From Candidatus Latescibacterota bacterium (lineage in GTDB: Bacteria; Latescibacterota; UBA2968), in the NCBI GenBank assembly GCA_022821275.1, contig JAJEDY010000049.1:1-64000 (forward strand): a DNA stretch of 64,000 nt, given 5' to 3'. Position 1 is the first letter of the stretch. Every line of letters begins with the position of its first letter. Both the position numbers and the translations under genes were made by a program. Below, in pieces: positions 3,396 through 17,677 of the stretch. Below the pieces are notes generated by a model. The model saw only the letters and a program-made list of their open reading frames with translations. It ran no database searches and was not told the DNA's origin.

Positions 3396-3665
3396 ATGTC
3401 TATTGAACAGCGGGTCAAACAGGTGATCATTCGCACATTGTCTCTTGAAGTTGCTGCAGAAGAGATTGAAGATGAAGACGCGCTTTTTGGCGGTGGTCTG
3501 GGGCTTAATTCGATGGCGACGGTTGAGATCATTGTGGGTCTGGAAGAGGAATTTGGCATTGAAGTTCCAGATGAAGAGTTGCGCGTGGAACTGTTTGATA
3601 GCGTACAGACCATGGCCGGCTATGTTCGCACAGTGTTACAGAAAGTACCTGAGGTCGCCGGATAG
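3396..3665 (+). CDS. Acyl carrier protein
   Basis: 89 residues, acidic, PP-binding fold. The phosphopantetheine site is Ser39 in GLGLNSMATVEII, where most ACPs have DSL, so it is a divergent, probably dedicated carrier rather than the housekeeping AcpP. The downstream helix (EEEFGIEVPDEEL) is typical. A strong AGGAGGGG precedes the ATG. The next gene, 28 nt downstream, is a BtrH-like cysteine enzyme; in butirosin synthesis BtrH moves an acyl group from the carrier BtrI, so the pair probably forms an acyl transfer unit. No fatty-acid or polyketide synthase genes are adjacent. Confidence 0.85.
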   Translation: MSIEQRVKQVIIRTLSLEVAAEEIEDEDALFGGGLGLNSMATVEIIVGLEEEFGIEVPDEELRVELFDSVQTMAGYVRTVLQKVPEVAG

Positions 3666-3693
3666 ATAGAATAGATTTTTCGCTCGCACTTAG

Positions 3694-4737
3694 ATGATAC
3701 AGATTTTGAGACACGTCATGAAAAAATCGCTTCCCATACAGGTATCCCCACCCATCCACGGCTATCCCCGCCATGGCTATCGGCTTTCGATTATGTCACT
3801 TCACGATGCCTATATCCCCTGGTTCTTTTGCAATTACATCCAGCTATTCGCCGTTGACCTGTTGCATGAGAGCAAACATAACATCCGATTCAACTTCTAT
3901 TTTCAGGGACCGTATTCCCCGCCGTGGCTGTCTATATACACTGTTCCAAGGCGATCAATTGCTAAAGTATATCACCAGATTGTGCCGTATATTCGCGATC
4001 AGATTGATGAGGGCTTCTATGTCCAATTGATGGCCGATGAGTATTTCCTGCCACACACGCCATTTTATGAGAAAACCCATCATCCACATGCCATTCTCGT
4101 ATTCGGATATGATGACGATACAGAAATGCTTGAGACTCTGGGATTCAATCGAGCGAGGGATTATGCTGTTTCAGGGGTTGCGTATTCAGGTTTTGAAGCG
4201 GCGTTTCGCTGGATTGATCCCGCAAAAGGCGGATCGTATCGGGTGACTCTTTTTGAGTATAACGAGGACGGTGTCTATGAGTTTGACATTGACGCAGTCA
4301 GAGATCAGTTGCGAGCCTATATCTATTCTGAGAATCCATCTATCCACTATCGGATGTTGCGTAAGCCAGTTGAAGGCGTCTTTGGGATGGCGACGTATAA
4401 GCTCTTGCGAGAATACTTTACTCATTTGTTTGTTCATCCTCGGTTGTGGGATCGGCGGCATTTGTTCACGCTTTGGGAGCACAAGCGTTGTATGTTAGAC
4501 AGGTTTGCTTACCTGGAGGAGCATGGATATTTGCGTCCGTCAGATCAGTTTCATCAGGCGTACAAGGAGGTTGAACAGAAGGCGCATCAGATTCATCTGA
4601 TGATGCTTAAATTGCGAGCGTTAGGAGAAATCAAGAGAGCGTGGGATATAGATCGTATTCTGAAGATTATCACCTTGTTAGATGATATTTCTCAAAGGGA
4701 AGAGCGCATACTAAAAAATGTTTTGAAAGTGCTTTAA
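3694..4737 (+). CDS. BtrH-like / C39-like papain-fold acyltransferase candidate
   Basis: 347 residues from ATG 3694 (an in-frame ATG at 3718 is also possible). The N-terminal half shows the pattern of the BtrH/C39-like papain fold: Cys46 in WFFCNY, a VQLMADEYFLP strand, then His132 in HAILVFGYDDD with Asp140 nearby. These would be the Cys-His-Asp centre. The C-terminal half is helical and charged. In the BtrH family such enzymes transfer an acyl chain from an acyl carrier protein to an amine; the ACP gene immediately upstream supports that. Substrate unknown. It could also be a cysteine peptidase of the C39-like group. Followed by a bidirectional terminator at 4841. Confidence 0.6.
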   Translation: MIQILRHVMKKSLPIQVSPPIHGYPRHGYRLSIMSLHDAYIPWFFCNYIQLFAVDLLHESKHNIRFNFYFQGPYSPPWLSIYTVPRRSIAKVYHQIVPYIRDQIDEGFYVQLMADEYFLPHTPFYEKTHHPHAILVFGYDDDTEMLETLGFNRARDYAVSGVAYSGFEAAFRWIDPAKGGSYRVTLFEYNEDGVYEFDIDAVRDQLRAYIYSENPSIHYRMLRKPVEGVFGMATYKLLREYFTHLFVHPRLWDRRHLFTLWEHKRCMLDRFAYLEEHGYLRPSDQFHQAYKEVEQKAHQIHLMMLKLRALGEIKRAWDIDRILKIITLLDDISQREERILKNVLKVL

Positions 4738-7733: not shown

Positions 7734-10700
7734 ATGCCAACACTTAACCTCAAACCTACCCACAAGCCCATCAGAGCCTACTATGAATCGCTCGGTCACT
7801 TTGATCGGCTCGGCGTCACGCATGAAACAGCCGTGCGCTCGGCGTTTCAGTCACTGCTCGAATCGTGTGGGAAGCAGTTTGAGTGGACGCTGGTTCCCGA
7901 GCATTCGATGGCTCTCAATCGAAATAAGCGGATTGTCGTTGATGGAGCGTTAATTGATGATTTCCGATTGACCCATGGCTATTGGGAGGCGAAGGATATA
8001 CACGATGACCTCCCAACCGAAGTTCAGCGAAAATTTGAGGCGGGTTATCCTACAGATAATATTCTGTTCCAGACGCCACAACGGGCAATCCTCTATCAGG
8101 ATGATCGTCGAGTGCTGGACGCCGACCTGACCGACCCGAAGCAACTCATTGAGACGCTCCAAACTTTCTTTGCCCATCGTCCGCAAGAGATCGCCGAATG
8201 GGAGAATGCAGTCACGCAGTTCAAAGATATAGTGCCTGAGATCGGACGAGGATTGGCGGAGTTGATTCAGAGGGAGCGCGAGACCAATAGCCGATTTACC
8301 ACCGCCTTTGCAGATTTTCTGGATAAATGTCGCTTGTCAATCAATCCAAACCTCGCTGAAGCTGCGGTTGAGGAGATGCTCATTCAACATCTTTTGACCG
8401 AGCGGATTTTCCGAACTGTTTTCGATAATCCCGATTTCACCCGCCGTAATGTAATCGCCAATGAGATTGAGAAAGTGATTGACGCGCTTACATCGCAGTC
8501 GTTTAGCCGTCAGGAATTTCTCCACAGTCTTGATCGCTTCTATGTGGCTATTGAACGGACAGCGGAAACGATCAATGATTTCTCGCAAAAACAGCATTTC
8601 CTCAACACCGTCTATGAACAGTTTTTTCAGGGCTTTTCCGTCAAGGTTGCCGATACACACGGTATCGTCTATACACCGCAACCCATCGTCGATTTTATGG
8701 TGAAAAGCGTTGAGCATATTTTACAGACTGAATTTGACCGTTCGCTTTCTGATGGCGGGGTTCATATTATTGATCCGTTTGTTGGCACCGGCAATTTCAT
8801 CGTGCGAATTATTCGGGAGATTCGCAAAACCGCGCTTGAGTATAAGTACAAGTCCAACCTTCACTGCAATGAAGTGATGCTCCTGCCTTACTATATCGCG
8901 TCAATGAATATTGAGCACGAGTTTTACGAGGCGACAGGGCATTATCTGCCATTTGAGGGAATATGTCTGGTCGATACTTTTGAGTTGGCAGAGCCGCAGC
9001 AGATGGTGTTGTTTACGGAGCAGAATGCGGAAAGAGTGGAACGGCAGAAGGAAACACCGATGTTTGTAATTATTGGGAATCCGCCGTACAATGTTGGGCA
9101 GGTGAATGAGAATGATAATAACAAAAATCGGAAGTACGCAACTATGGATGCACGGGTAAGGGAAACGTATTCGCAAGATTCAAAGGCGACGAATAAAAAC
9201 AAGCTCTCCGATTCCTATGTGAAGGCGATTCGGTGGGCATCGGATCGGGTTGGCGATGAAGGCGTTGTTGCCTTTGTGACGAATAACGGATTTCTCGATG
9301 GGGTAGCTTTTGATGGGATGAGAAAACATCTCGCAGACGATTTCGATGCGATTTACATTCTGGACCTGGGCGGGAATGCACGTAAGGGTTTGAAGGTCTC
9401 GGATGCCAATGTGTTTGGGATTCGGGTTGGCGTGAGCATCAATCTGTTTGTAAAGACAAAGCGGCATCAGTCAGAGACAACCCGCCTCTTTTACTACCGA
9501 ACAGACGACCTGTGGAACAAAGAGCAAAAATTTGATTTTCTGAATGAACATGAAAATGTAGGCTCTATTGAATGGCAAACGATTCAACCAGACCGTCGAT
9601 ATACATGGCTCACAGAAGGACTTCACGAGGAATTTGAGACCTTTATCCCGATGGGCACCAGAGAAGCAAAAGCGGTTAAGGGTGAGGTGGATGATGTGAT
9701 TTTTAAGACTTACAGTTTGGGCGTAACGACGAACCGCGATGCGTGGGCTTGCAACTTCAATCGAAACACACTTATAGAGAACATGGGACAGATGATAAAA
9801 ACTTACAACGCAGAGGTTGATAGGTGGAAACGGCAGGAAAACCAGAAGGCAAGCGTTGATAATTTTGTGGTTTCTGAGGATAAAAAAATCAAGTGGAGCG
9901 AAACACTTAAGCGGAACTTGCGAAGAGGGAAAACCACTGATTTTTCACAGGAAAAGGTGAGGCCATTCCTCTATCGTTTATTTACCAAATCGAACCTCTA
10001 CTTTGACAGAATGATGAATGAGAGAGTGCGAGAGTTCCCATCTATCTTCCCCAAACCTGAGACAGAGACGGAAAATCGAGTGATAATCGTCAACGATCAT
10101 GGTTTCCGCTCAGGTTTTAATACTCTGATGGCAAACCTGATTCCCGAACTTCATACACTCGCGGCAAGTGACGGCTTTCAATGCTTCCCTTTCTACACCT
10201 ACGATGAGGATGGAACAAATCGCCGTGAGAATATTACCGATTGGGCGTTGATACAATTGCGTGGGCATTATGAAGATGACACAATCACCAAATGGGATAT
10301 TTTTCATTATGTTTATGGCTTGCTCCACCACCCGAATTATAGGGAGCGGTATCAAGCGAATCTCAAGCGGGAATTGCCGCGCATTCCGTTCACACCGAAA
10401 TTTTGGAGATTTGCCAAAGCGGGGCAACGGCTATCGAAAATCCACGTAGGCTACGAGGACATGCCCGAATATCCGCTCACTTTCATCGAAACACCGGACA
10501 TGCCTCTCAACTGGCGCGTGGAAAAGATGAGGTTCTCCAAAGACAAAACGCAGATTATGTACAACGATTTCTTGACTCTTGACGGAATCCCTCCGAAAGC
10601 ACTGGCCTATCGGCTTGGTAATCGCTCGGCATTGGAATGGATCGTTGATCAATACCGCATTAAAGAGGACAAACGAAGTGGTATCATCAATGATCCAAAT

Positions 10701-10823
10701 CGCGAAGATGATCCGCAATACATCGTCAAGCTGATTCAAAAGGTCATAACGGTGAGCTTGGAGTCTGTGGAGATTGTTGAGAGCTTGCCAGCGGTGGGGG
10801 ACAAGATAGAAGAAGGAGACTAA
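7734..10823 (+). CDS. Restriction-modification fusion: PD-(D/E)xK nuclease + N6-adenine methylase (type IIG/ISP-like)
   Basis: 1029 residues. The N-terminus carries a likely nuclease centre, Asp70 in IVVDGAL and Glu85-x-Lys87 in YWEAKD. A helical linker follows, then a SAM motif DPFVGTGNF (347-355) and the amino-methylase motif NPPY (449-452). The remaining ~560 residues resemble the target-recognition region of type ISP enzymes; the helicase/translocase that true type ISP enzymes carry is absent. It should both methylate adenines and cleave unmodified DNA, so no separate methylase is needed. First gene of a coupled operon; its TAA overlaps the next ATG by one base. The specificity sequence cannot be read. 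Confidence 0.85.
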   Translation: MPTLNLKPTHKPIRAYYESLGHFDRLGVTHETAVRSAFQSLLESCGKQFEWTLVPEHSMALNRNKRIVVDGALIDDFRLTHGYWEAKDIHDDLPTEVQRKFEAGYPTDNILFQTPQRAILYQDDRRVLDADLTDPKQLIETLQTFFAHRPQEIAEWENAVTQFKDIVPEIGRGLAELIQRERETNSRFTTAFADFLDKCRLSINPNLAEAAVEEMLIQHLLTERIFRTVFDNPDFTRRNVIANEIEKVIDALTSQSFSRQEFLHSLDRFYVAIERTAETINDFSQKQHFLNTVYEQFFQGFSVKVADTHGIVYTPQPIVDFMVKSVEHILQTEFDRSLSDGGVHIIDPFVGTGNFIVRIIREIRKTALEYKYKSNLHCNEVMLLPYYIASMNIEHEFYEATGHYLPFEGICLVDTFELAEPQQMVLFTEQNAERVERQKETPMFVIIGNPPYNVGQVNENDNNKNRKYATMDARVRETYSQDSKATNKNKLSDSYVKAIRWASDRVGDEGVVAFVTNNGFLDGVAFDGMRKHLADDFDAIYILDLGGNARKGLKVSDANVFGIRVGVSINLFVKTKRHQSETTRLFYYRTDDLWNKEQKFDFLNEHENVGSIEWQTIQPDRRYTWLTEGLHEEFETFIPMGTREAKAVKGEVDDVIFKTYSLGVTTNRDAWACNFNRNTLIENMGQMIKTYNAEVDRWKRQENQKASVDNFVVSEDKKIKWSETLKRNLRRGKTTDFSQEKVRPFLYRLFTKSNLYFDRMMNERVREFPSIFPKPETETENRVIIVNDHGFRSGFNTLMANLIPELHTLAASDGFQCFPFYTYDEDGTNRRENITDWALIQLRGHYEDDTITKWDIFHYVYGLLHHPNYRERYQANLKRELPRIPFTPKFWRFAKAGQRLSKIHVGYEDMPEYPLTFIETPDMPLNWRVEKMRFSKDKTQIMYNDFLTLDGIPPKALAYRLGNRSALEWIVDQYRIKEDKRSGIINDPNREDDPQYIVKLIQKVITVSLESVEIVESLPAVGDKIEEGD

Positions 10824-12604
10824 TGATGAGCATTGTTTCAGATCAAAAACGTCTATCGCAAGCTGAGATGCTGGCGTGGTTGGGACGCGATCTAAAAATG
10901 ACCGAGATGGTCACTGTGTATCTATCTGACCACCAAGAGTCCCACGATTACGGCATTTATTGTGCTTTGATTCCTGTTGATCAGATTGAACAGGTACTTT
11001 CTTTTTCGAGTTGGGATCTTCGTTGGGGCGATGGTATGCCAGATGCTTCTATGTCTTATGAAGGTGGAGAAAAGCGAGTTCAATACCTGCGGTACGGTGT
11101 TACAGATAGGGTTGAACCTTTGGTTTTGGGGCGCGAATTCTCTGATTTATATGATGCCTATATGGAAATATCTGAGGAGTTCCGCCTTTTCCACAAGCTC
11201 TATCACGACAGAAAGAAGGATAAATACATCAAGATTGATGAAGCGGGAAATGAAGACTTAGTGGCTATTGTCGAGGCAAACCGCGTCCAGATACGGCTTA
11301 AGGAGATTCGTCAGTTCTTAGCGATTAAGGAGATGTATTTATCAATTCAATTCGATTGTCGAGAACATTCGAAATATGCTCTGCAAGAACTCGGACTTGA
11401 GGAAGGCGAAAGTAAGCATCGGGACGGTCTTGTGTGTTGGGCGCGTACCCACGTTGACTCCAGTTTAGGAAATTGTCGCTCATTTAGTACACTCTCAGGC
11501 AAACGACTGGTTAGACCTCTGGCGAAATCCAAAAGCGGTTTATGGGGATTTGCTGAGGAACAGAAAGAATATGCGGAATTTATCATTGATGTTGATGAGA
11601 ATGGAGATGAAATTATCCACACATCCGACCCGGATGCACTGGCAAATAATTTCGGCGCAAATCCCGATGCGCCCCATTTTCTAACCCCTGTGCATTTTGA
11701 CAAACAGGTTTTAGACAAATACTACCAACAGCCCAGTAAGTACAACGTAGATGCTTGGAGTCTGCGCTGTGGTAGCCTATGGCACATGTGGATTGACAAA
11801 GACCATGATGACAAAGTTTGTGCGTGGTTAGGACATCTTGGAGAAAGATTGCCTTACAAAGAGCAACTACACTGGCGGACGCATAATATCCCTCCCAAAG
11901 GCGGTGTGAGTAAGGCTTTTTTTGATTGTGGAATCAAAGGAAAAGCGGCGAAATCAGACCGGCCAGAGCACTTGTTTAAGGAACGTTATCAGGATTTACA
12001 AGATGCCTGTAAAGAATATCTGGGGTGGCAGTTGTTGTTGCCACTGGATACGGCTGACGAGTACCATTTCAAAAATTTGAGAGTTCCGACCACTGATGAG
12101 CAACGCGATTTTGATGAGTTAGTTTTGAGTCTCACAAAGATACTCATTGATTCCCTAAATGAGAGGCGTCTAAACACGCTCATTTCTAAAGATCAAAAAG
12201 CAAAACTTAAAGGTAGCATTGCACGTCTGGAAGCTGTGCTTAGTGCCCATGATGTTGAAGGTGCTGCCGAGCGTATCGCCTTTCTGCGGAAGCTTCAGAG
12301 CCTGCGTTCGAGCAGTGCAGCACATCGCAAGGGGCGTAACTATCGAAAAATTGCGAAGGACTTCGGCGTTGAGAGTCAGCATTTGCGCGATGTATTTACC
12401 GGGATTATCTGGCAAGCGTTAGATGTTCTGGACTATTTCATCTTTCTTGTGCGAAGTGGCCCTATTAATCCTGAAATCATTGAAAAAAATAAAATAGAAG
12501 AAGGATACGCGATTCTCGATGAGATGGTTGGATTTGCAAAATCTGACCGAACCGATGGATCTGTCAATCATGATGAGGTTATCTATGGAGAGCGTTCAAA
12601 ATAA
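10823..12604 (+). CDS. Unrecognised 593-residue protein of the restriction operon, possible HEPN domain
   Basis: The ATG overlaps the stop of the restriction-modification gene by 1 nt and its own stop overlaps the PIN toxin ATG by 1 nt, so it is translationally embedded in the defence operon. I do not recognise the full length. Residues 1-200 are mixed and charged; 300-410 hold several Trp and His; the C-terminus (430-545) is helical and contains LRSSSAAHRKGRNY, giving R495-x5-H501, which fits the R-x4-6-H motif of HEPN ribonucleases. A HEPN assignment is inference only. It could instead be a specificity or regulatory partner of the upstream enzyme. Confidence 0.6.
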   Translation: MMSIVSDQKRLSQAEMLAWLGRDLKMTEMVTVYLSDHQESHDYGIYCALIPVDQIEQVLSFSSWDLRWGDGMPDASMSYEGGEKRVQYLRYGVTDRVEPLVLGREFSDLYDAYMEISEEFRLFHKLYHDRKKDKYIKIDEAGNEDLVAIVEANRVQIRLKEIRQFLAIKEMYLSIQFDCREHSKYALQELGLEEGESKHRDGLVCWARTHVDSSLGNCRSFSTLSGKRLVRPLAKSKSGLWGFAEEQKEYAEFIIDVDENGDEIIHTSDPDALANNFGANPDAPHFLTPVHFDKQVLDKYYQQPSKYNVDAWSLRCGSLWHMWIDKDHDDKVCAWLGHLGERLPYKEQLHWRTHNIPPKGGVSKAFFDCGIKGKAAKSDRPEHLFKERYQDLQDACKEYLGWQLLLPLDTADEYHFKNLRVPTTDEQRDFDELVLSLTKILIDSLNERRLNTLISKDQKAKLKGSIARLEAVLSAHDVEGAAERIAFLRKLQSLRSSSAAHRKGRNYRKIAKDFGVESQHLRDVFTGIIWQALDVLDYFIFLVRSGPINPEIIEKNKIEEGYAILDEMVGFAKSDRTDGSVNHDEVIYGERSK

Positions 12605-13026
12605 TGATTTTTGTCGATAGCGGTGCCTGGATTGCCCTTACCAATCAAAGAGATCAGAATCACACTGACGCTGTGACGATTTACACGGATTTAAAACGGC
12701 AAAAAGTACGATTTTTAACGACGGATTATGTGCTTGATGAAACCATAACGCGACTTCGATATGACGTGCGCCACTCAGTAGCGGTGCAGTTTCTCGACTT
12801 TATTGAACGCGCTCAAAAAATAGATGGTTTAACCGTCACAGAAATCGATAAAACCCTGTTTCAAGAAGCCAAACGGCTTTTTCGTCAATACGACTCTGCA
12901 AAGTTATCATTTACAGATTGCACCAGCTTCGCGGTTTGTCAAAAGCATAACATTTCTGAGACTTATGCTTTTGACGAGCATTTTGCGATGATGGGGATAA
13001 CTGTGCTCAAAACGGTTGAACGATGA
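12604..13026 (+). CDS. PIN-domain ribonuclease toxin (VapC-like)
   Basis: 140 residues. The PIN acidic site is intact: Asp5 in MIFVDSGAW, Glu46 in LDETITRL, Asp105 in SFTDCTS and Asp124 in AFDEHF. The family cleaves RNA (often tRNA or rRNA) and is held in check by a small DNA-binding antitoxin. Its ATG overlaps the stop of the 593-residue gene; its own stop region overlaps the antitoxin ATG by 4 nt. Unusually, the toxin precedes the antitoxin. Confidence 0.85.
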   Translation: MIFVDSGAWIALTNQRDQNHTDAVTIYTDLKRQKVRFLTTDYVLDETITRLRYDVRHSVAVQFLDFIERAQKIDGLTVTEIDKTLFQEAKRLFRQYDSAKLSFTDCTSFAVCQKHNISETYAFDEHFAMMGITVLKTVER

Positions 13027-14106: not shown

Positions 14107-16200
14107 ATGGGAATTAAAGTGTGGATCGCACTTATCGGTGTTTTTGCCAGTTTTGTGCTTCTGGTGCAGGGGATGGGGTATGTCGCGTTTTACCTTTCGC
14201 CGCGCGATCCGGATGCGATACAACGGGCATCGGAATTTGAGGCTGCGATGGGCAGTCTGGTGCGCGCGTCCGAGGATGGCGTTGTGCCTGTGGTGCAGGC
14301 AGATGGGACGCGCGATCTCGAAGCTGTGATGGCGGATGTTGAGATCCCCAATCGCCATCCCGAGGCAACGGGGGCGGTGCATCGGGTGATGGAATGGTCG
14401 GGGGGACGATTTGGAGAAGCGCCTATGCTCGCTCAACGGGTGCGGGACGGGATTCTGCCGCCCGTGTTGGAACGCCTGCCGGAAAATCCTCTGGTTATTG
14501 TACCGCCACAACAGCATGGGCCTTATGGGGGGACGTGGACGCGGTTTGCCACTGGTCCCCGCGATGTGGGGATTGTCGAAGCTCGATTTGCGTATGAGGG
14601 GCTGGTGCGGTGGGATGCGATGGCGCAGAAGGTGATCCCCAATCTGGCTGTCCGGTGGGAGATTGCCGATGGTGGGCGCAGTTTTACATTTTATTTGCGG
14701 CGAGGAGTCAGGTGGTCAGATGGGCATCCGTTTACGGTTGATGATCTGATTTTCTGGTATGAGGATGTGTTGCAAAATGAGGAGATAACGCCTGTTGTTC
14801 CGCGCGATTTTAAGCGGGGGGGACAGGTGATGGGATTGGAGAAGGTCGATAATTATACGGTGCGGTTCACGTTTTTGGAACCCAATGGATTGTTTATAAA
14901 GAAGTTGGCGTCGGGGCGCGGTTATGAGATGTTGCGCTATCCTGCCCATTATATGAAGCAATTTCACCCGAAGTACACGTCTTTGGAAAAGCTCGAGGCG
15001 ATGAGTGAGGCTGCGGGATTTGATTTGTGGAAGCAGCTTTTTGAAGATATGCGCGATTGGCGCAATCCGGATATCCCGCGTTTGTGGCCGTGGATTGTGG
15101 TTGCGCCGCCGCCTGCGCGTCCGGCAGTGCTGGAGCGCAATCCCTTTTATTGGAAGGTCGATCCCGATGGGAATCAACTGCCGTACATCGACCGCATGAC
15201 GTTTGAGATTTTTGATCCTGAGACCATCAATCTCAAGGCGATCAACGGGGAAATAGGCATGCAGGGGCGACATCTGCAGTTCCAGAATTATCCGCTTTTT
15301 ATGGAGGGGAGAAAGAAGGGCGATTATCGGGTTGTGCATTGGATCAATGGGTCGGCGGGATCAAATATCCTGGCATTGAATTTGAATCACCGCGATCCGG
15401 AAATGAAGCGGATTATCGGGGATCATCGCTTTCGAAAAGCCCTATCGCTCGCGCTGAAACGCGATGAATTAAACGAGGCGGATTATTTTGGGATTGGGAA
15501 GCCGAGGCAGGTTTGTCCGCCGCCATCGTCGCCGTTTTACGATGCGGAGTACGAGCGCGCCTATATCGAATACGATCCCGACCGCGCAAACGCATTGCTC
15601 GATGAGATGGGTTTGAAACGCGGAAGAAATGGCATGCGATTGCGGGCTGATGGTGTACCGATTAAGCTCTATATTGAGACGACATCTCTGAATAATCGCA
15701 TTCTGGAACTGGTGGCGAGTTATTGGACTGCGGTGGGGGTACATTCAGAAGTGAAGGAAGAAGCGCGGCAGTTGTTTTACGAGCGCAAAAAGGGTTTGTT
15801 GCACGATGTTGGCGTGTGGGGCGGTTCCGATGAGCAGATCGCCGTTCTGGATCCGCGCTGGCTCGTTCCCTTTAGCGATGAGTCTGTACACGCGGTGGAT
15901 TATGCACGCTGGTATCGTACGGAGAAAAAGCGCGGGGAGGTACCTCCCAGAGATATTCAGCGGTGTATTGAACTGTTTTGGGAGATTGAAAAGACAATTG
16001 ACGAAGATGAACAGATCAGGCTTATGAAAGAAATTATCGATTTGAATCGAAAGAATCTGTGGGTTATCGGCACGGTGGGGGCATTGCCCTCGTTTTATCT
16101 GGTCAAAAATTCATTTCGCAATGTGCCCGAGGTCGCGATGTCCGGCTGGGCATTTCGCACGCCTGGAAATACGGCGGTTGAGTGTTATGCGATTGAATAA
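14107..16200 (+). CDS. ABC transporter substrate-binding protein, family 5 (peptide type)
   Basis: 697 residues, longer than the usual 500-600. One N-terminal membrane segment (about 5-28) and no lipobox, so it is likely membrane-anchored or slowly cleaved. An N-terminal extension of about 120 residues precedes the SBP_bac_5 fold, which begins near GTWTRFATGP and contains the family pattern LRRGVRWSDGHPFTVDDLIF. Family members bind oligopeptides, nickel or glycosides outside the membrane and feed an OppBC channel. The matching permeases start 480 nt downstream, beyond an inserted cassette. Confidence 0.85.
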   Translation: MGIKVWIALIGVFASFVLLVQGMGYVAFYLSPRDPDAIQRASEFEAAMGSLVRASEDGVVPVVQADGTRDLEAVMADVEIPNRHPEATGAVHRVMEWSGGRFGEAPMLAQRVRDGILPPVLERLPENPLVIVPPQQHGPYGGTWTRFATGPRDVGIVEARFAYEGLVRWDAMAQKVIPNLAVRWEIADGGRSFTFYLRRGVRWSDGHPFTVDDLIFWYEDVLQNEEITPVVPRDFKRGGQVMGLEKVDNYTVRFTFLEPNGLFIKKLASGRGYEMLRYPAHYMKQFHPKYTSLEKLEAMSEAAGFDLWKQLFEDMRDWRNPDIPRLWPWIVVAPPPARPAVLERNPFYWKVDPDGNQLPYIDRMTFEIFDPETINLKAINGEIGMQGRHLQFQNYPLFMEGRKKGDYRVVHWINGSAGSNILALNLNHRDPEMKRIIGDHRFRKALSLALKRDELNEADYFGIGKPRQVCPPPSSPFYDAEYERAYIEYDPDRANALLDEMGLKRGRNGMRLRADGVPIKLYIETTSLNNRILELVASYWTAVGVHSEVKEEARQLFYERKKGLLHDVGVWGGSDEQIAVLDPRWLVPFSDESVHAVDYARWYRTEKKRGEVPPRDIQRCIELFWEIEKTIDEDEQIRLMKEIIDLNRKNLWVIGTVGALPSFYLVKNSFRNVPEVAMSGWAFRTPGNTAVECYAIE

Positions 16201-16213
16201 AGGGGCTGAGGGT

Positions 16214-16663
16214 TAGGGGCTCGGGGCTGGTTGGTGGTTGGAAGTGGGGAGGTGGTGTATGACGGGCATTAGGAGTTATCGCGATCTTGAAGTTTGGAAA
16301 CAGGGCATTGTATTGGCCAAAGGCCTTTATCGTGCAACGGAAAAGTTTCCAGAGCATGAAAAGTTTGGTTTGACCAGTCAGATGCGGCGTGCAAGTGTTT
16401 CTATTTCATCGAATATAGCAGAAGGTCACGCAAGAGGCACGCCAGGAGAATTTCAGCGTTTTATATCTATAGCAATGGGATCGGTTGCAGAGTTAGAGAC
16501 GCAAATTATCATCAGTTTAGAAATTGGGTATTTTGCAGAAGGGACATCCCAAAGGTTATTAGAACAGCTCGACAGAATTGGAAAAATGCTCAGAGGTCTC
16601 CATCTATCATTAGGTAAGAGAATACCGCGCAAGCCTTAACCAGTCTCCAGCCCCCAGTCCCTA
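16214..16663 (+). mobile_element. Four-helix-bundle (S23/IVS-type) cassette with G-rich inverted repeats
   Basis: Left end TAGGGGCTCGGGGCTGG (16214-16230) and right end CCAGCCCCCAGTCCCTA (16647-16663) are inverted repeats of 17 bp with two mismatches. They enclose one small gene (16259-16639) of the four-helix-bundle family related to proteins encoded in 23S rRNA intervening sequences. The unit sits between the binding-protein and first permease genes of the ABC operon, which are normally adjacent. No target duplication is obvious. It has no transposase, so any mobility would depend on another agent. Confidence 0.55.
16259..16639 (+). CDS. Four-helix bundle protein (S23 / IVS-protein family)
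   Basis: 126 residues from ATG 16259 (AGGTGG nearby upstream). The sequence YRDLEVWKQGIVLAKGLY, then LTSQMRRASVSISSNIAEG and GSVAELETQI are hallmarks of the family found in 23S rRNA intervening sequences, related in fold to Avd of diversity-generating retroelements. Known members form pentameric bundles that may bind nucleic acid. No reverse transcriptase is nearby. It is an intruder in a transporter operon; see the enclosing cassette. Confidence 0.9.
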   Translation: MTGIRSYRDLEVWKQGIVLAKGLYRATEKFPEHEKFGLTSQMRRASVSISSNIAEGHARGTPGEFQRFISIAMGSVAELETQIIISLEIGYFAEGTSQRLLEQLDRIGKMLRGLHLSLGKRIPRKP

Positions 16664-16681
16664 TACCAAGGAAGTTTTTAT

Positions 16682-17677
16682 ATGCTCGTCCTCATCATTA
16701 AACGCTTACTTTGGATGATACCCACCATGGTCATCATCTCCTTCATCTCCTTCTCGATTATCCAGCTTCCGCCGGGGGATTATCTCACGTCGTATATTGC
16801 CGCGCTGGGGGAAACGGGGGAGACGGTGGATGAGGCGCAGGCTGCGGCATTGCGGGCGCGGTACAATCTCGATCAGCCTTTTATGGTGCAATACTGGCGG
16901 TGGTTGGCCGGGATGGTGCAGGGCGATTTGGGGATGTCGTTTGAGTGGAACCGGCCCGTGACAGAGCTGATTGGCGAACGCATTTTGTTGACGTCTATTA
17001 TTTCGATTGTGACGCTGCTCGTGACGTGGGCACTGGCGATTCCGGTTGGGATTTATTCGGCTGTGAAGCAGTATTCACTGCCGGATTATTGTTTTACGTT
17101 TTTGGGCTTTATCGGGCTTGCGACACCGAATTTTTTGCTCGCGCTCGTTTTTATGTACATCGGGTATTCCGTGTTTGGGGTGAGTGCGGGGGGGTTGTTT
17201 TCACCGGAATACCAGAGTGCGGCGTGGTCTTTTGGCAAATTTCTCGATTTGCTCGGGCATTTGTGGATTCCGGTGATTGTGATTGGCACGTCGGGTACGG
17301 CGGGGTTGATACGGGTGATGCGGGGCAATTTGCTGGATGAATTGCGGAAGCAATACGTGATGACTGCCCGCGCCAAAGGCGTGCGCTACTGGGTGTTGCT
17401 GATGCGGTATCCGGTGCGCGTTGCGCTCAATCCGCTCGTCAGTACTGTGGGATGGGTTTTACCGGGCATTGTGTCTGGGGCGACCATTACGTCGGTGGTG
17501 TTGGGCTTGCCGACGACGGGACCGCTGTTGTTGCGCGCGCTGATGAATCAGGATATGTATTTGGCGGGCAGTATGGTGATGATGTTGAGCCTGTTGACAC
17601 TTGTCGGCACGCTCATTTCAGACATTTTGTTGTTGTGGCTCGATCCGCGCATTCGCTATGAAGAGGGGGAGCATTAG
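16682..17677 (+). CDS. ABC transporter permease, OppB/DppB type
   Basis: 331 residues, about six membrane segments beginning at residues 8-28. The cytoplasmic loop that contacts the ATPase reads YVMTARAKGVRYWVLL, the expected EAA-type loop. N-terminal MLVLIIKRLLWMIPTMVII is typical. AAGGAAG precedes the ATG. Forms a channel with the OppC-type protein that starts on the base after its stop. Confidence 0.95.
   Translation: MLVLIIKRLLWMIPTMVIISFISFSIIQLPPGDYLTSYIAALGETGETVDEAQAAALRARYNLDQPFMVQYWRWLAGMVQGDLGMSFEWNRPVTELIGERILLTSIISIVTLLVTWALAIPVGIYSAVKQYSLPDYCFTFLGFIGLATPNFLLALVFMYIGYSVFGVSAGGLFSPEYQSAAWSFGKFLDLLGHLWIPVIVIGTSGTAGLIRVMRGNLLDELRKQYVMTARAKGVRYWVLLMRYPVRVALNPLVSTVGWVLPGIVSGATITSVVLGLPTTGPLLLRALMNQDMYLAGSMVMMLSLLTLVGTLISDILLLWLDPRIRYEEGEH

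Follow-up and report, generated by a model that had tools for sequence, protein, structure and literature searches.

S23 genes of the 23S rRNA intervening-sequence family lie between convergent arrays of element-specific heptamers, as in a transporter operon of a Latescibacterota bacterium

Genes of the S23 family, known from 23S rRNA intervening sequences, are as a rule bracketed by two convergent arrays of 7 bp units. One such gene was identified in Candidatus Latescibacterota bacterium (assembly GCA_022821275.1, contig JAJEDY010000049.1), in a stretch of 64,000 nucleotides that was analysed as a whole and is referred to here as the window. It sits between the substrate-binding protein gene and the permease gene of an ABC transporter (Table 1). 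The unit is probably a minimal mobile element of the intervening-sequence type, composed of an S23 gene between convergent arrays of a heptamer that is specific to the element. We know of no function for S23, or 'four helix bundle', genes.

Table 1. Features of the S23 unit and of the transporter genes on either side of it (window positions)
Feature	Position	Strand	Basis and remarks
Peptide/nickel-type ABC transporter substrate-binding protein gene	14107..16200	+	Upstream of the insert; TAA stop codon at 16198-16200; orthologues in genus-mates
Left heptamer array, AGGGGCT GAGGGTT AGGGGCT CGGGGCT GG	16201..16230	+	Sequence and pattern searches; absent in G002, G005 and G006
S23 / 23S rRNA-intervening-sequence protein gene, four-helix bundle, 126 aa	16259..16639	+	Profile matches
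Right heptamer array, AGGGACT GGGGGCT GGAGACT GG (minus strand)	16640..16662	-	Sequence; convergent with the left array
Whole S23 unit, ~460 bp	16201..16662	+	Predicted RNA fold, in which the paired arrays make one terminal stem round the gene
OppB-type permease gene	16682..17677	+	Downstream of the insert

The S23 protein of the window is a member of both families to which it was compared, with 127.2 bits to PF05635 23S_rRNA_IVP (E = 3.9e-37, curated cut-off 33.8) and 114.2 bits to TIGR02436 four helix bundle (E = 3.2e-33, cut-off 24). Among solved structures, 2GSC (the Xanthomonas protein XCC0516) is the closest (E = 4e-26). The first-pass annotation of this DNA had proposed that a single gene of the S23/IVS family separates the binding-protein gene from the permease gene, and the PF05635 match and the gene positions bear this out. 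It had also described 17 bp G-rich inverted ends. These are real, with 15 of the 17 bases in agreement, but the description is too short, since they belong to longer arrays of 7 bp units with the motif RGGGGYT. There are four units on the left (16201-16228) and three on the right (16640-16662), the left array starting immediately 3' of the stop codon of the binding-protein gene with its G-rich strand pointing inward. The sequences AGGGGCTCGGGGCTGG at 16215-16230 on the plus strand and AGGGACTGGGGGCTGG at 16647-16662 on the minus strand are the sole matches in the window to their joint pattern, which has zero matches in all of 100 shuffles, a descriptive result, since these two sites supplied the pattern. 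No transposase or recombinase was found in the unit, in which S23 is the only recognised gene and transposase families have zero matches. The unit lies between transporter genes and outside any rRNA gene, and an Rfam search of positions 15900-16900 returned no matches. PADLOC gave no defence annotation. Upstream of the transporter genes, a 1029 aa ORF with an NPPYN methyltransferase-like motif (7734-10823) and a PIN-domain-like ORF (12604-13026) were seen by eye.

The window's flank pair scores only 15 in generic local alignment, where about one control interval in four reaches 14, and the significance of this locus therefore rests on the recurrence of its motif in the same genome. The strict RGGGGYT pattern (RGGGGYTRGGGGYTRG) has 21 matches in the source genome against 0 for the reversed pattern, and is found at about 17 other places. 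These are mainly short solo intergenic arrays, with one inverted pair that has no cargo (L155). Further copies with the same ends, which had been anticipated, are thus present in the source genome as S23-less arrays of the same motif, but there is no second S23 gene, this genome having only one. Arrays of RGGGGYT are also found, in smaller number, in congeners that lack S23.

In three congeners whose binding protein is 96-98% identical (G002, G005 and G006), the same junction has about 15 bp from stop to start and neither array nor S23. Comparison with such empty sites had been suggested as a check on fixation, and it shows that the cassette is not universal among relatives. The earlier proposal of a transposase-less unit with inverted ends inside an operon therefore stands, with close relatives lacking the unit, and this presence/absence polymorphism suggests that the window unit is mobile. 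The junction has received inserts more than once, since in three other congeners (G001, G007 and G009) it holds a different insert of two ORFs, one of them nucleotidyltransferase-like. In G007 and G009 this insert is bracketed by inverted GCAGATGAAC-type repeats (L161 1-1127 in G007). In G008 the junction (L042 after 3549) has a piece of sequence that, to the eye, looks like part of an IS605-type TnpB gene.

S23 genes were present in 69 of 194 sampled genomes. A protein-coding operon had been considered an unusual site for such a gene, yet S23 genes are routine between protein genes, for example between nrdB and nrdA, between cas6 and cas4, and in a TraM-containing operon. Over two sets of loci, inverted similarity of the flanks was above threshold in 129 of 156 S23 loci (83%), against about 8% of mispaired loci. 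The second set was made up of 74 S23 genes from named genomes of many phyla and one archaeon (L279), was analysed with unchanged script settings, and has no identical S23 DNA in common with the first. A score of at least 16, a threshold chosen after the first set was known and with which other thresholds agree, was reached by 62 of 82 S23 genes in the first set and 67 of 74 in the second. In the first set, mispaired flanks reached this score in 5.6% of cases and control intervals of the same loci in 12%; in the second the figures are 10% and 18%. The control-interval rates are overestimates, because the strong matches among these intervals are mostly GC-rich coding sequence and not arrays. The associated p-values (MWU, 4e-31 against mispaired flanks and 1e-26 against control intervals in the first set; about 1e-34 in the second) are indicative only, because the loci are not phylogenetically independent. 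Genes for ParE toxins, used as a small mobile control family, reached the threshold in 2 of 27 cases, close to their own mispaired rate.

The similarity has a clear period. Identity within the flanks at lags of 7, 14 and 21 is 0.51, 0.47 and 0.44, respectively, against a background of about 0.27. Arrays of lag 7 are present in both flanks at 47% of the 156 S23 loci compared to 0.07% of 1505 control intervals; lag 8 is a minor class (12%), and lags 5, 6, 9 and 10 are almost nil. About 17% of S23 loci fall under the threshold, many of them with one-sided or degenerate arrays. Convergent heptamer arrays round the gene are the rule for S23 genes. The fixed 17 bp ends that the first-pass annotation supposed to be common to such units were not found; the ends are instead heptamer arrays with an element-specific motif.

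Two further observations were made in these surveys. In two distant genomes (L029 in G158 and L054 in G008) the S23 units seem to adjoin similar host genes, with flank alignment scores of 38 and 39, perhaps a sign of target preference. Inverted short tandem arrays also flank GxxExxY genes (TIGR04256; L283-L312), 25 of 28 scoring at least 16 against 19% when mispaired. These arrays are of another class, with units of about 8-10 nt that often begin with ACCAC, such as ACCACAGATTACGCAGATT. The source genome has three GxxExxY genes (C53:59181, C53:60685 and C24:38017).

The S23 elements have a median length of about 520 bp (519), and in 86 of 99 loci the inward strand is richer in G than in C. In 70 of the 99, the order of units is matched between the two arrays beyond what is seen with permuted units (p<=0.05), so the two behave as copies of each other and not as independent arrays with a common motif. 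Where one genome has several S23 loci, their motifs usually differ. Motif similarity is only weakly correlated with S23 identity (Mantel r = 0.10, p = 0.001, without control for GC content), and the S23 phylogeny was therefore rejected as what fixes the motif. Purifying selection on the S23 codons is seen in two diverged pairs, with dN/dS of 0.05 and 0.11; in a third pair the ratio is 0.31, from six changes, and the others are near-identical or saturated and so uninformative.

Copies without S23 are also present in Pseudoxanthomonas wuyuanensis, where the heptamer that brackets S23 has 100 exact 15-mer matches, with 0 for the reversed sequence and 0 in seven other genomes. Among the matches listed there are 8 close opposite-strand pairs; all 8 converge, and S23 lies inside one of them. 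Detected pairs account for 13 of the 20 places read, mostly as 4+4 units with an outer CGGGACC unit. The cores of the pairs are no more similar to each other than shuffled sequences are, and some pairs may enclose host DNA, since the core at L385 includes a host start codon. In two genomes, the heptamer of the resident S23 is also found in S23-less arrays elsewhere.

Heptamers are over-represented among bacterial simple repeats and have no agreed origin (PMC4692102, PMC4679880). Those described include GGGAATC in Xanthomonas and GGGGA(C/T)T in Nostoc (Rehm 2015, PMC4692102), and TAACTGA in Beggiatoaceae (MacGregor 2015, PMC4679880). In Xcc there are 186 arrays of GGGAATC, with 70 cases of convergent pairs and a preference for four units (PMC4692102), and the pattern in P. 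wuyuanensis is that reported for this repeat. The published repeats are like the S23 ends in their 7 bp units, four-unit preference, intergenic location near stop and start codons, and convergent pairs. In the text searched, the two papers do not mention S23 and leave the origin open. Unlike the published repeats, the genome-wide repeat in two genomes here is the end motif of a resident S23.

S23 units are like MITEs and REP sequences in being short and intergenic, with inverted ends and no transposase gene. They are unlike them in that their ends consist of tandem heptamers whose motif varies by element, the cores of the short pairs are mutually unrelated, and the full-length partner encodes S23 and not a transposase. 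On a rival reading, the unit is a passive, MITE-like cassette, in which an unrelated transposase acts on the heptamer ends and S23 is cargo of benefit to the host. To our knowledge S23 has no catalytic site or motif, it is under purifying selection, and in P. wuyuanensis the S23-less arrays outnumber the pair that encloses S23, all of which would suit a passive cassette. However, a single transposase is not expected to recognise ends that usually differ between elements within one genome, S23 is the recurrent content of period-7 ends across phyla, and GxxExxY, a different small gene, goes with a different array class. A passive cassette is therefore considered improbable, if not negligibly so.

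Sites with and without a unit were also compared in other genomes, and orthologous sites were found that lack both the gene and its arrays. There are four clean comparisons on cyanobacterial plasmids (Nostoc, Calothrix/Tolypothrix and Pseudanabaena), in which related records, about 90-97% identical across the matched parts, have neither gene nor arrays. The sites are a TraM/hypothetical gene pair, two junctions of hypothetical genes, and an integrase/hypothetical pair. The cas6/cas4 junction of Pseudanabaena is not a clean empty site, because the 88.6%-identical relative, which lacks the S23 unit, has a few ATTACGA heptamer-like units in its short intergenic stretch. As further comparisons, L061 was usable, whereas L063 and L067 were too rearranged or orthologously occupied. 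Pre-existing arrays as insertion targets were rejected, as the empty sites have no arrays and the arrays are inverted rather than direct.

Several of the inserts are placed at stop/start junctions. At most sites the edges are precise only to a few bases; a target-site duplication of 3-5 bp is possible at two (ATG; CTA/TTCTA), with none clear elsewhere. The filled TraM site lacks about 45 nt of host sequence relative to the empty site, and another filled site has about 37 nt extra past the right array. At the TraM site, a further relative (L357) has array-like remnants without S23, which suggests that S23 units decay into S23-less arrays. A tblastn search for S23 units in phages gave zero matches. 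Dispersed repeats of about 165-190 bp are abundant in four genomes (G015-G018), and inverted GAATTAA-type arrays bracket some of them; the repeats at L061 of G015 (3554-3720, 3756-3940 and 4174-4362) adjoin an S23 gene and S23 fragments.

Folding of the window unit (16196-16672) gave a minimum free energy of -151.7 kcal/mol (z = -3.4), and none of 100 shuffles was as stable. In the predicted fold of the transcript, the arrays are the arms of one long stem round the gene. Across S23 loci, the flanks pair in the predicted folds of 36 of 39 transcripts, against 13 of 38 shifted controls. The rRNA intervening sequences of Coxiella and Leptospira that have an S23 ORF are alike in protein family, in size (428-444 nt compared to ~460 bp) and in the stem made by their complementary ends. 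That of Coxiella has tandem GACAGAT heptamers and a 28 bp terminal stem, is cut by RNase III at the first repeat, and is excised from the transcript without religation (PMC4990558). The Coxiella study holds that S23 is not expressed there, cites the Xanthomonas S23 structure as a homopentamer of four-helix bundles, and regards the origin of rRNA intervening sequences as still unresolved (PMC4990558). The window unit differs from these in being in a protein-coding operon and not in rRNA. Family-wide heptamer arrays, an element-specific motif and S23-less copies are undescribed in the rRNA intervening sequence literature searched, and where that literature was searched for S23 together with tandem or inverted repeats, the only link that came up was the Coxiella heptamers.

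It could be argued from the folds that the arrays act in RNA only. S23 would then be inserted by some other means and persist only at places where the flanking sequences pair as a long RNA stem removable by RNase III; the arrays would be stem-forming adaptations and products of slippage rather than sites recognised in movement. The pairing of arms across the gene at 36 of 39 loci, the rRNA precedent with RNase III (PMC4990558) and the insertion of S23 inside operons all agree with this, but selection for pairing alone predicts neither a period of 7 nor the inward G-rich strand of 86 of the 99 loci. The existence of S23-less pairs and solo arrays, and the joint absence of arrays and gene in close relatives, also argue against it, and it is seen as somewhat less probable than a passive cassette.

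The S23 protein of the window is homologous to bAvd (E = 1.5e-4) and DivGenRetAVD (E = 1.7e-5), although its 25.1 bits against a cut-off of 80 place it outside the latter model. Avd, of the diversity-generating retroelements, belongs to a homologous four-helix-bundle family (PMC10053308); unlike an Avd system, the source genome has no match to the RVT_1 reverse transcriptase. Despite this homology and the truncated S23 pieces that adjoin arrays in G015-G017, mobilisation by a reverse transcriptase in trans, which would copy S23 RNA into targets and make the heptamers by repeated priming, is very unlikely and was rejected as a general mechanism, because RVT_1, a model whose reach does not extend to more diverged reverse transcriptases, has no match in G000 (the source genome) or in G124, G103, G122 and G164, which carry 4-12 S23 genes and of which G122 and G164 are single-contig genomes, and because S23 truncations are not consistently 5'.

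With the unit taken as a minimal mobile element, the arrays, of about four units each with the G-rich strand inward, would act as terminal inverted repeats. The S23 ring protein may bind its own heptamer array and act on the ends together with host enzymes, promoting movement, and it may also serve S23-less copies in trans, as suggested by the association of S23 with arrays and the matching of motifs. The match between the two ends might be maintained by copying of one end onto the other when the element moves or is repaired. The stem would let RNase III cut the unit from the operon mRNA and so reduce harm to the host operon, by analogy with rRNA intervening sequences, for which RNase III cleavage has been shown experimentally.

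The S23 protein family, the rRNA intervening sequences and the heptameric repeats are already known. No literature linking non-rRNA S23 genes to heptamer arrays was found in a search that lay outside preprints and most subscription journals. There is a substantial chance that the S23 unit class as a whole deserves separate status. More tentatively, S23 units could be minimal mobile elements of a class of their own, spread across bacterial phyla and at least some archaea, whose non-enzymatic ring protein reads its own heptamer code at the ends of the element. Heptameric simple repeats would be the ends and S23-less derivatives of such units, rRNA intervening sequences the special case of units that landed in rRNA, and GxxExxY with its 8-10 nt arrays a parallel class. 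One anatomical rule ties together S23 genes, heptameric repeats and rRNA intervening sequences, and makes each of them testable at the bench. S23 units may explain the scattered seven-letter repeats that have long been noticed in bacterial genomes.
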